In this document: positions 26,906 to 28,562 of the stretch, piece after piece | Layout of the letters: the number at the start of each line of letters is the position of its first letter | How positions within the stretch are numbered: position 1 is the stretch's first letter | NCBI RefSeq assembly: GCF_000243155.2 | Contig: NC_018017.1 | Coordinates: 1,488,001 to 1,552,000 of the forward strand | DNA: 64,000 bases | Source of the DNA: Desulfitobacterium dehalogenans ATCC 51507 | Lineage (GTDB): Bacteria; Bacillota; Desulfitobacteriia; Desulfitobacteriales; Desulfitobacteriaceae | Direction of reading: 5' to 3' | Notes under the pieces: model-generated | What the model saw: only the letters and a program-made list of their open reading frames with translations | Told to the model about the DNA's origin: nothing | Database searches by the model: none | Translations under genes and position numbers: made by a program

Positions 26906-27067
26906 TTACCATAGAACATGTTGTTCTTTATGCTCTAAAATCATTTTCAAGGCAGTAATTATGAAAACAACAAAGATAAATGCCCCCAGCGATACCAACG
27001 GAGAGAAATAGGCAAAGGGTTGTGCGTATAAAAGTGTGCCGTGTGCCCATAAATCATATAAAGTCAT
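26906..27067 (-). CDS. small single-span membrane protein, third gene of membrane operon
   Basis: A 53-residue protein with aromatic N-terminus (TLYDLWAHGTLLYAQPFAYF), one hydrophobic span (LVSLGAFIFVVFIITALKMI) and a charged tail. ATG 27067 follows GAGGAGA at seven bases. It lies 48 bases after the 241-residue membrane protein gene on the same strand. I do not recognise the family. Context suggests a subunit of a membrane complex with the two preceding genes. Confidence 0.65.
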   Translation of the reverse strand: MTLYDLWAHGTLLYAQPFAYFSPLVSLGAFIFVVFIITALKMILEHKEQHVLW

Positions 27068-27115
27068 GGTATCTCTCCTCTTGGCGAGCATAAGCTGGAA
27101 ATCGTAACTCTGCGA

Positions 27116-27841
27116 TTATAAACTGCACCTTATTTCATCAAGGAGCTCCTGATTTAGGCTTAGGATAAATTTAAAAATAATGCCACAGAGAAAAAGTCCG
27201 ACAGACAGAAACATAATTCCAAGTTGCAGGGGAAAAGGTGCATATATATCTATAAATCGAATGAGACTTTTGATATTTTCATTGGGCTCTAAGGATTGTT
27301 TAATACTAAATTCTATGTGTCGCAAATCGATTGTCAAAAAACCGATTGAGGTGTGATCATCAATGATAGGAAAATATATAGACATGCGTGGAGTTAAATT
27401 GAAGGGATTTAAAGACGGCGTCACTGACTCATCTGTTGGCACAATATTTTCGTATTCTGAACGAACAGCCTGAACAATTTTATTCGCTCCGTCGGTTAAG
27501 ACTAACCCCAAGGAAGCAAACATGATGAGCAATGTCAAAGGGATTGGAGAATTTAATTCTAATATTTTAAACATTAGATAGATGGTCTGATTTGGTTCTA
27601 TCTGTTGGCGTCCGTAGACTGCTATTCTCTGAAGGTCAAGGATTGAAATGCCAATTGCTCTGTAGGGGGGGATAAAAAACCAAAAGAGAATTGTACGCGG
27701 ACACAAGTTAAAAGGATCTAAGCGGTTATGGAAGTATTTTCGAGTTATTCGACAGAGTTTGGAATGGAATTCACTCTGCCAGTATCTCTTTAGAAAATAA
27801 TAGCAATTCGGAAATCTATTAATAGATTTATCGGATGACAT
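27116..27841 (-). CDS. unrecognised membrane protein with internal duplication
   Basis: A 241-residue protein made of two similar halves. The first half has RLDPFNLCPRTILFWFFIPP, then AIGISILDLQRI, then PLTLLIMFASLGLVL. The second half has SLNPFNLTPRMSIYFPIIDD, then SIGFLTIDLRHI, then PLQLGIMFLSVGLFL. Each half ends in one membrane span, so a hairpin-like two-span topology with two homologous extracellular or cytoplasmic domains is likely. The ribosome-binding site is a run of eleven G residues six bases before the ATG. Neighbours are two single-span membrane proteins in the same operon. No family recognised. Confidence 0.7.
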   Translation of the reverse strand: MSSDKSINRFPNCYYFLKRYWQSEFHSKLCRITRKYFHNRLDPFNLCPRTILFWFFIPPYRAIGISILDLQRIAVYGRQQIEPNQTIYLMFKILELNSPIPLTLLIMFASLGLVLTDGANKIVQAVRSEYENIVPTDESVTPSLNPFNLTPRMSIYFPIIDDHTSIGFLTIDLRHIEFSIKQSLEPNENIKSLIRFIDIYAPFPLQLGIMFLSVGLFLCGIIFKFILSLNQELLDEIRCSL

Positions 27842-27847
27842 GAAAAT

Positions 27848-27858
27848 CCCCCCCCCCC
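27848..27858 (-). repeat. G11 homopolymer acting as the ribosome-binding site
   Basis: Eleven consecutive C on the + strand read as G11 in the mRNA. It ends six bases before the ATG of the 241-residue membrane protein, in the exact place of the Shine-Dalgarno sequence. Such tracts change length by slippage, so expression could vary between cells. Confidence 0.75.
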
Positions 27859-27877
27859 TTTTTATTCCTATGCAAAA

Positions 27878-28063
27878 CTAAAAGGAGTCAATTATTTGGG
27901 GCACTGATTTTTCAATTGGGTTTTCAACATACCCTACTGTTCGGAGAATTAACCATGTCCAGAATAAAGAGTTTATGATGGCTATGACGGTAGGGACGGG
28001 CAACCATATTCCCCAAAATTTAGTTGTCGTTTTTGTATTGTCCGTTAAGCCCATGCTGTTCAT
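27878..28063 (-). CDS. small single-span membrane protein, first gene of membrane operon
   Basis: A 61-residue protein with a polar N-terminus, one hydrophobic span (WLPVPTVIAIINSLFWTWLI) and a short tail ending IEKSVPQIIDSF. ATG 28063 is preceded by AAAGGTGATG. It begins the three-gene leftward membrane operon. It was not recognised as any known family. Confidence 0.65.
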   Translation of the reverse strand: MNSMGLTDNTKTTTKFWGIWLPVPTVIAIINSLFWTWLILRTVGYVENPIEKSVPQIIDSF

Positions 28064-28297
28064 ATCTTCATCACCTTTGTTAAGATGGTAAGGTCAAATA
28101 GTTTCTAAAGATAACGTAACCCAGAATAGAAGAGAAAAGAAAGGAAAAAAACAACCATATAAGCCAGTAATATTGGACTAGGCGCAACGCAAAGTCATAC
28201 ACCAATATCATCCTTTTTTGATATTATATGGATTGACTTCGGTGTTGTTCGTAAAGTAGGAAAATGTATACACACGACCAAACTATAACAATTCTTC

Positions 28298-28326: not shown

Positions 28327-28339
28327 ACATTTAATAGCG

Positions 28340-28562
28340 ATGATAAAAACTAAGGTTTATAAATCTCCCAGAGAGCCGGTAGTTGGTGCGAACCGGTGAG
28401 AAATTAAACCGTTCCATTTTTTGAGCTGTCGGCGATGAGTCGAAGGGTGTGCCCTTTACAGCACTTTAGAGTGGTCAGTGTTATCTGACAATTTGGGTGG
28501 TACCGCGGATGCTTTCCGTCCCATATTATTTGTATGGGTTCGGAAGGCTTTTATTTTTCTAA
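28340..28562 (+). ncRNA. T-box leader (serine type) with terminator
   Basis: The leader shows the stem I elements AGAGAGCCGGTAGTTGGTG and GAACCGGT, and the T-box sequence GGGTGGTACCGCGG at 28495-28508 that pairs with the uncharged tRNA end. It ends in a terminator whose arms are GCTTTCCGTCCCATA and TATGGGTTCGGAAGGC followed by TTTTATTTTT. The likely specifier is TCC at 28413-28415, followed by the expected purine, matching a serine codon and the serS gene downstream. Low charged tRNA-Ser would favour antitermination. Confidence 0.93.

Follow-up and report, generated by a model that had tools for sequence, protein, structure and literature searches.

Introduction

Long G or C homopolymers close to gene starts are familiar from contingency loci such as those of Neisseria and Campylobacter, which work through frameshifts or through the spacing of promoters, differ between strains, come in sets and often belong to surface genes. 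Long G runs are prone to slip. Another case is the espR gene of Mycobacterium tuberculosis: one extra G in the poly-G of its 5'UTR raises the output of a reporter while the mRNA level is unchanged (PMC11898584), and espR is the nearest measured precedent found for a length-dependent effect of poly-G. Judged from titles and the openings of abstracts, a literature search gave no Shine-Dalgarno (SD) sequence that is itself a poly-G phase-variable tract; one paper, PMC5903667, came up as combining Desulfitobacterium with phase variation.

We analysed a tract of eleven G (G11) that precedes the start codon of a membrane protein gene, here gene c, of Desulfitobacterium dehalogenans. The window, i.e. 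the whole stretch of DNA analysed, comprises 64,000 nucleotides.

Results

Position of the tract and comparison with homologous starts

Read on the minus strand, the stop codon TAG of gene b (27880-27878) is followed by 19 nt, the G11 tract (27858-27848), ATTTTC (27847-27842) and the ATG of gene c (27841-27839). The first-pass annotation, which counted eleven G ending six bases before the ATG, was right in both coordinates and count. The features of the locus are:

28080..28211, minus strand: gene a, membrane peptide of 43 aa, or 40 aa from a GTG (open reading frame; Ka/Ks 0.191 against L083)
27878..28063, minus strand: gene b, membrane peptide of 61 aa, just upstream of gene c (open reading frame; Ka/Ks; found in L084 and L086)
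27848..27858, minus strand: G11 tract, SD site of gene c (sequence; homologous to GGAGG of L083, with equal flanking distances)
27842..27847, minus strand: ATTTTC, 6-nt spacer from the tract to the start codon (sequence; the counterpart in L083 is ATTTCA, of equal length)
27116..27841, minus strand: gene c (P0001), internally duplicated membrane protein of 241 aa, ATG at 27841-27839 (open reading frame; relatives; Ka/Ks; repeats)
26906..27067, minus strand: gene d, membrane peptide of 53 aa, downstream of gene c (within an open reading frame; found in L084 and L086)

The locus L083, the closest relative found (protein identity 82–83%), is laid out as stop, 19 nt, GGAGG, 6 nt, ATG: both flanks have the same length as here, and the site alone differs in length, by six bases. 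Since a canonical GGAGG stands there at identical flanking distances, the tract is most likely the SD site itself, and the earlier claim that it lies in place of a Shine-Dalgarno sequence is supported by this syntenic relative. The tract also has the placement of an SD, 6 nt before the ATG of a real gene (Ka/Ks 0.145).

L083 has no G11 tract. A G-rich site separates the stop of gene b from the start of gene c at each of the 15 homologous starts examined, the own one included, and the longest G run at this site is 2–8 in the 14 homologues; for the 13 starts other than the own and L083 it is 2–7, or 8 for L021 when the G of the stop codon is counted. The repeat tract is thus not kept in the related genomes.

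Gene c and its neighbours

Positions 26906-28211 of the window hold, on the minus strand, a module of four open reading frames of 43, 61, 241 and 53 aa; hydrophobic segments occur in every one of them, and the module has no known family. The order a, b, c, d is kept in L083, while the loci L084 and L086, both from Desulfosporosinus, share the order b, c, d. As Ka/Ks against L083 lies between 0.105 and 0.191 across the module (a 0.191, b 0.119, c 0.145, d 0.105), these four genes are kept by purifying selection. Divergent from the module, a T-box leader (window 28331-28526, plus strand; Rfam RF00230, 108 bits) precedes a seryl-tRNA synthetase gene (identified by Pfam).

The description of gene c as a duplicated membrane protein holds: residues 41–115 are 39% identical to the second half over 75 aa (E 8e-17), and one hydrophobic segment closes each repeat. 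An AlphaFold model (mean pLDDT 68.5, pTM 0.51) predicts two four-strand repeats with a long helix. Of the 61 genomes of the order, 19 contain relatives of gene c at E<=0.01, a count that includes its own genome, and the three other species of the same genus examined contain none; a scan of named genomes gave nine loci, three of them in Desulfosporosinus, and the plasmids and viral contigs searched gave none. A homologue of 185 codons, present at L015:1378-1932 (G049) and L091:2926-3480, lacks the stretch between the repeats when compared with its near relative L006 (240 codons). Family, fold and structure searches gave no name for gene c: there was no Pfam match above the cut-off, no NCBIfam match for P0001 (among ten members of the family, single matches at chance level only), no PDB fold match at E<=0.001 and no match in a PDB sequence search.

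G runs in the genome and in the order

The window contains a single G11, and none of 100 dinucleotide-preserving shuffles of the window contains one; the tract is besides the single run of at least eleven G in the whole genome (4,321,753 bp; G+C content 44% in a 464-kb sample), and is in this sense a homopolymer of unusual length near a gene. The number of runs falls with each added base by a factor of 0.13–0.30 (0.14–0.28 as measured in the 464-kb sample), and extrapolating this decay gives 0.05–0.65 runs of at least eleven G per genome; G11 is for this reason a rare tail event, neither impossible nor proof of selection for length. The expectation drops to 0.004–0.05 when extrapolated from the two other SD-placed runs of at least eight.

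The genome holds 24 distinct tracts of at least eight G (19 G8, three G9, one G10 and one G11), most of which fall within long coding frames. Three of the 24 lie convincingly just upstream of a start codon: the G11 tract, a G8 (L032) and a G9 (L034; G000:C1:1939452-1939460, plus strand). The latter immediately precedes ATG GAT ATG and a frame of about 499 codons, and is a candidate for a further poly-G SD site in this genome. Next in length among the G tracts of this genome is a G10 (L050; G000:C1:3742505-3742514, minus strand), which lies within an intact open frame of 185 codons that resembles MreD; a slip there would disrupt the encoded protein. Among the relatives considered here the longest tract is a G20 (L076; G011:C4:73051), with no open reading frame of at least 40 codons starting just downstream.

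G-rich and G-run SDs are ordinary in this genome. A search for seven G followed by 4–10 nt and ATG gives 31 rows, which represent 27 distinct tracts, compared with 8 for the reversed control, and 15 of the 95 runs of at least six G in the 464-kb sample have an SD-like placement. Across the 61 genomes of the order, G10 before ATG is hardly above the control (11 rows against 8), while G8 before ATG shows a mild excess (250 against 133 control rows), as G-rich SDs would give. On these row counts a family-wide system of poly-G SDs is rejected.

Modelled pairing with the 16S tail

The genome has six 16S 3' ends, and its 16S tail carries CCTCC. Pairing was computed with a simple model, which takes all registers against this tail and uses assumed constants for the spacing penalty. 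According to it, the G11 tract can pair with its own 16S 3' end with an ensemble energy of -12.4 kcal/mol, the GGAGG of L083 giving -6.7 kcal/mol. When the number n of G is varied, the model gives values between -9.2 and -9.4 kcal/mol for n=5–8, of -12.0 for n=9 and between -12.3 and -12.4 for n=10–16, and the predicted aligned spacing of the best register stays at 5–7 nt at all lengths from n=4 to n=16. Between G9 and G16 the modelled pairing stays level, since no slip removes the register adjacent to the ATG; as a register of 5–10 bases persists, slips of 1–3 bases would produce no off state through SD strength or spacing. This goes against the first-pass annotation, which expected a change of length to alter both the strength and the spacing of the ribosome-binding site: the modelled energy passes from about -9.4 (G8) to -12.4 (G11), then remains flat. 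Such a mechanism would fit a homopolymer placed between the SD and the ATG, not an SD made purely of G.

A frameshift switch, with the tract inside a reading frame, was considered and rejected: for n=8–14, a stop codon no more than 48 nt upstream interrupts the frame that leads to the ATG. At n=11 no start codon places the tract in a coding frame, and the sole start codon reading through it is a TTG without SD, at n=10 and 13.

Predicted pairing with the end of gene b

On the mRNA, the 3' end of gene b may pair with the G11 tract. The RNA fold gives two partners, both modelled and not conserved:

27880..27887, minus strand: CUCCUUUU at the end of gene b, predicted partner of the 5' side of the tract
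27898..27901, minus strand: CCCC in gene b, predicted partner of the 3' side of the tract

With the upstream context included (70 nt), the model predicts an unusually high cost for opening the initiation region: 20.8–20.9 kcal/mol for the native n=11, against 13.3 at n=5, 17.1 at n=8, 18.2 at n=13 and 15.2 at n=15, a peak which arises partly from the fixed footprint of the model. When this context is left out, as when the ribosome finishes gene b, the modelled cost is flat (8.0–9.3 kcal/mol). Synonymous recodings of the last 18 codons of gene b, its stop kept, have a mean opening cost of 12.9–13.0 kcal/mol, and the native cost is reached by 4/300 and 6/300 of them in two runs.

The high cost could leave the SD weak, or sensitive to length, when gene b is untranslated, and ordinary translational coupling may arise in addition from the predicted hairpin between the tract and the end of gene b. 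An SD hidden unless gene b is translated is predicted in the own genome only, not in the 14 homologues. In these, 81 to 288 of 300 recodings reach the native opening cost of the homologue concerned, so that the pairing is not conserved. Besides, the predicted fold of the mRNA as a whole does not exceed shuffles in strength (z 0.09), and the opening-cost signal, coming from one of 15 tests, may be due to chance.

Discussion

Origin of the tract

Taken together, these data lead us to consider that the G11 tract is probably the working SD of gene c, derived from a GGAGG-type site that went all-G and was then lengthened by slippage. An A-to-G change would have turned the ancestral GGAGG-type site into a run of G only, and this all-G site would then have gained about six G through replication slippage. 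Such growth would be tolerated, in that a pure G run of any length would keep 5–10 bases in register with the CCUCC region, G-U pairs included, without any change in the distance to the ATG. We infer the use of the site, the order of the mutational steps and the small effect of length on SD strength; the direction of change is itself inferred, since one close relative only can be compared.

Weighing the alternatives

A more dynamic role of the tract was suggested by the first-pass annotation, as a phase-variable contingency switch: frequent slips would generate length variants that raise or lower gene c, selected and reversible. It is true that the genome's sole run of at least eleven G sits on an SD. 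On the other side, SD energy and spacing are modelled as flat across G9–G16, L083 is without the tract and the 13 other homologous starts have at most G8, the genome offers no collection of similar tracts, and the target, a four-ORF membrane module under purifying selection, lies outside the known contingency classes. The claim of phase variation is in these respects unsupported, and we regard the switch as quite unlikely. A softer effect of length would go through the predicted pairing of the tract with the end of gene b and its CCCC: gene c would be translated mainly together with gene b, and length would gradually shift the balance, in the way of a rheostat. The native opening cost, matched by so few synonymous recodings, points in this direction, as does its variation with n in the presence of the upstream context and not in its absence; the poly-G of espR gives a precedent (PMC11898584). 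Against it stand a whole fold equal to shuffles, the ease with which recodings match the native cost in the 14 homologues, hence no conservation, the possible role of chance in one test among 15 and the share of the model's footprint in the peak at n=11; this reading seems to us unlikely. One may further imagine a hypermutable SD, in which slippage would tune the pairing with the end of gene b and yield a graded, reversible expression of the module without the SD ever being lost, an idea to which we give little credence. If length did tune expression, the SD itself would be the slipping element, and this in an apparently environmental dehalogenating bacterium, not a host-adapted one.

Homopolymers are also a common class of error in several sequencing methods. 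The true length of the tract could then differ from 11 and the site be an ordinary G-rich SD of another length, all the more as the sequence comes from one assembly; conversely, the assembly consists of one contig and has the rating complete. Because the tract is placed between reading frames, the sequence argues neither way on this point, and an error of this kind appears very improbable to us.

If the SD was indeed lengthened by slippage, as we favour, it illustrates clearly how a ribosome-binding site can grow in this way and why the G run is tolerated there, each length keeping a working register. Phase variation should not be deduced from the mere presence of a long homopolymer before a start codon.

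Comparison with known systems

With the homopolymeric phase-variable loci of Neisseria, Campylobacter and others, the tract shares a long G/C homopolymer near a gene start; unlike them, it is single, unconserved and non-coding. With the espR leader it has in common an untranslated poly-G whose length possibly acts via mRNA folding near the ribosome-binding site (PMC11898584). The espR poly-G, for which variants and reporter effects have been measured, is located at the leader's 5' end and at a distance from the SD (PMC11898584); in the present case, known from sequence and models, the SD itself is made of poly-G. The resemblance with G-rich Shine-Dalgarno sequences extends to the position, the 6-nt spacing, the predicted pairing with CCUCC and the homology to the GGAGG of L083; the tract departs from them in being pure G, in exceeding what the register needs and in being the longest G run of its genome.
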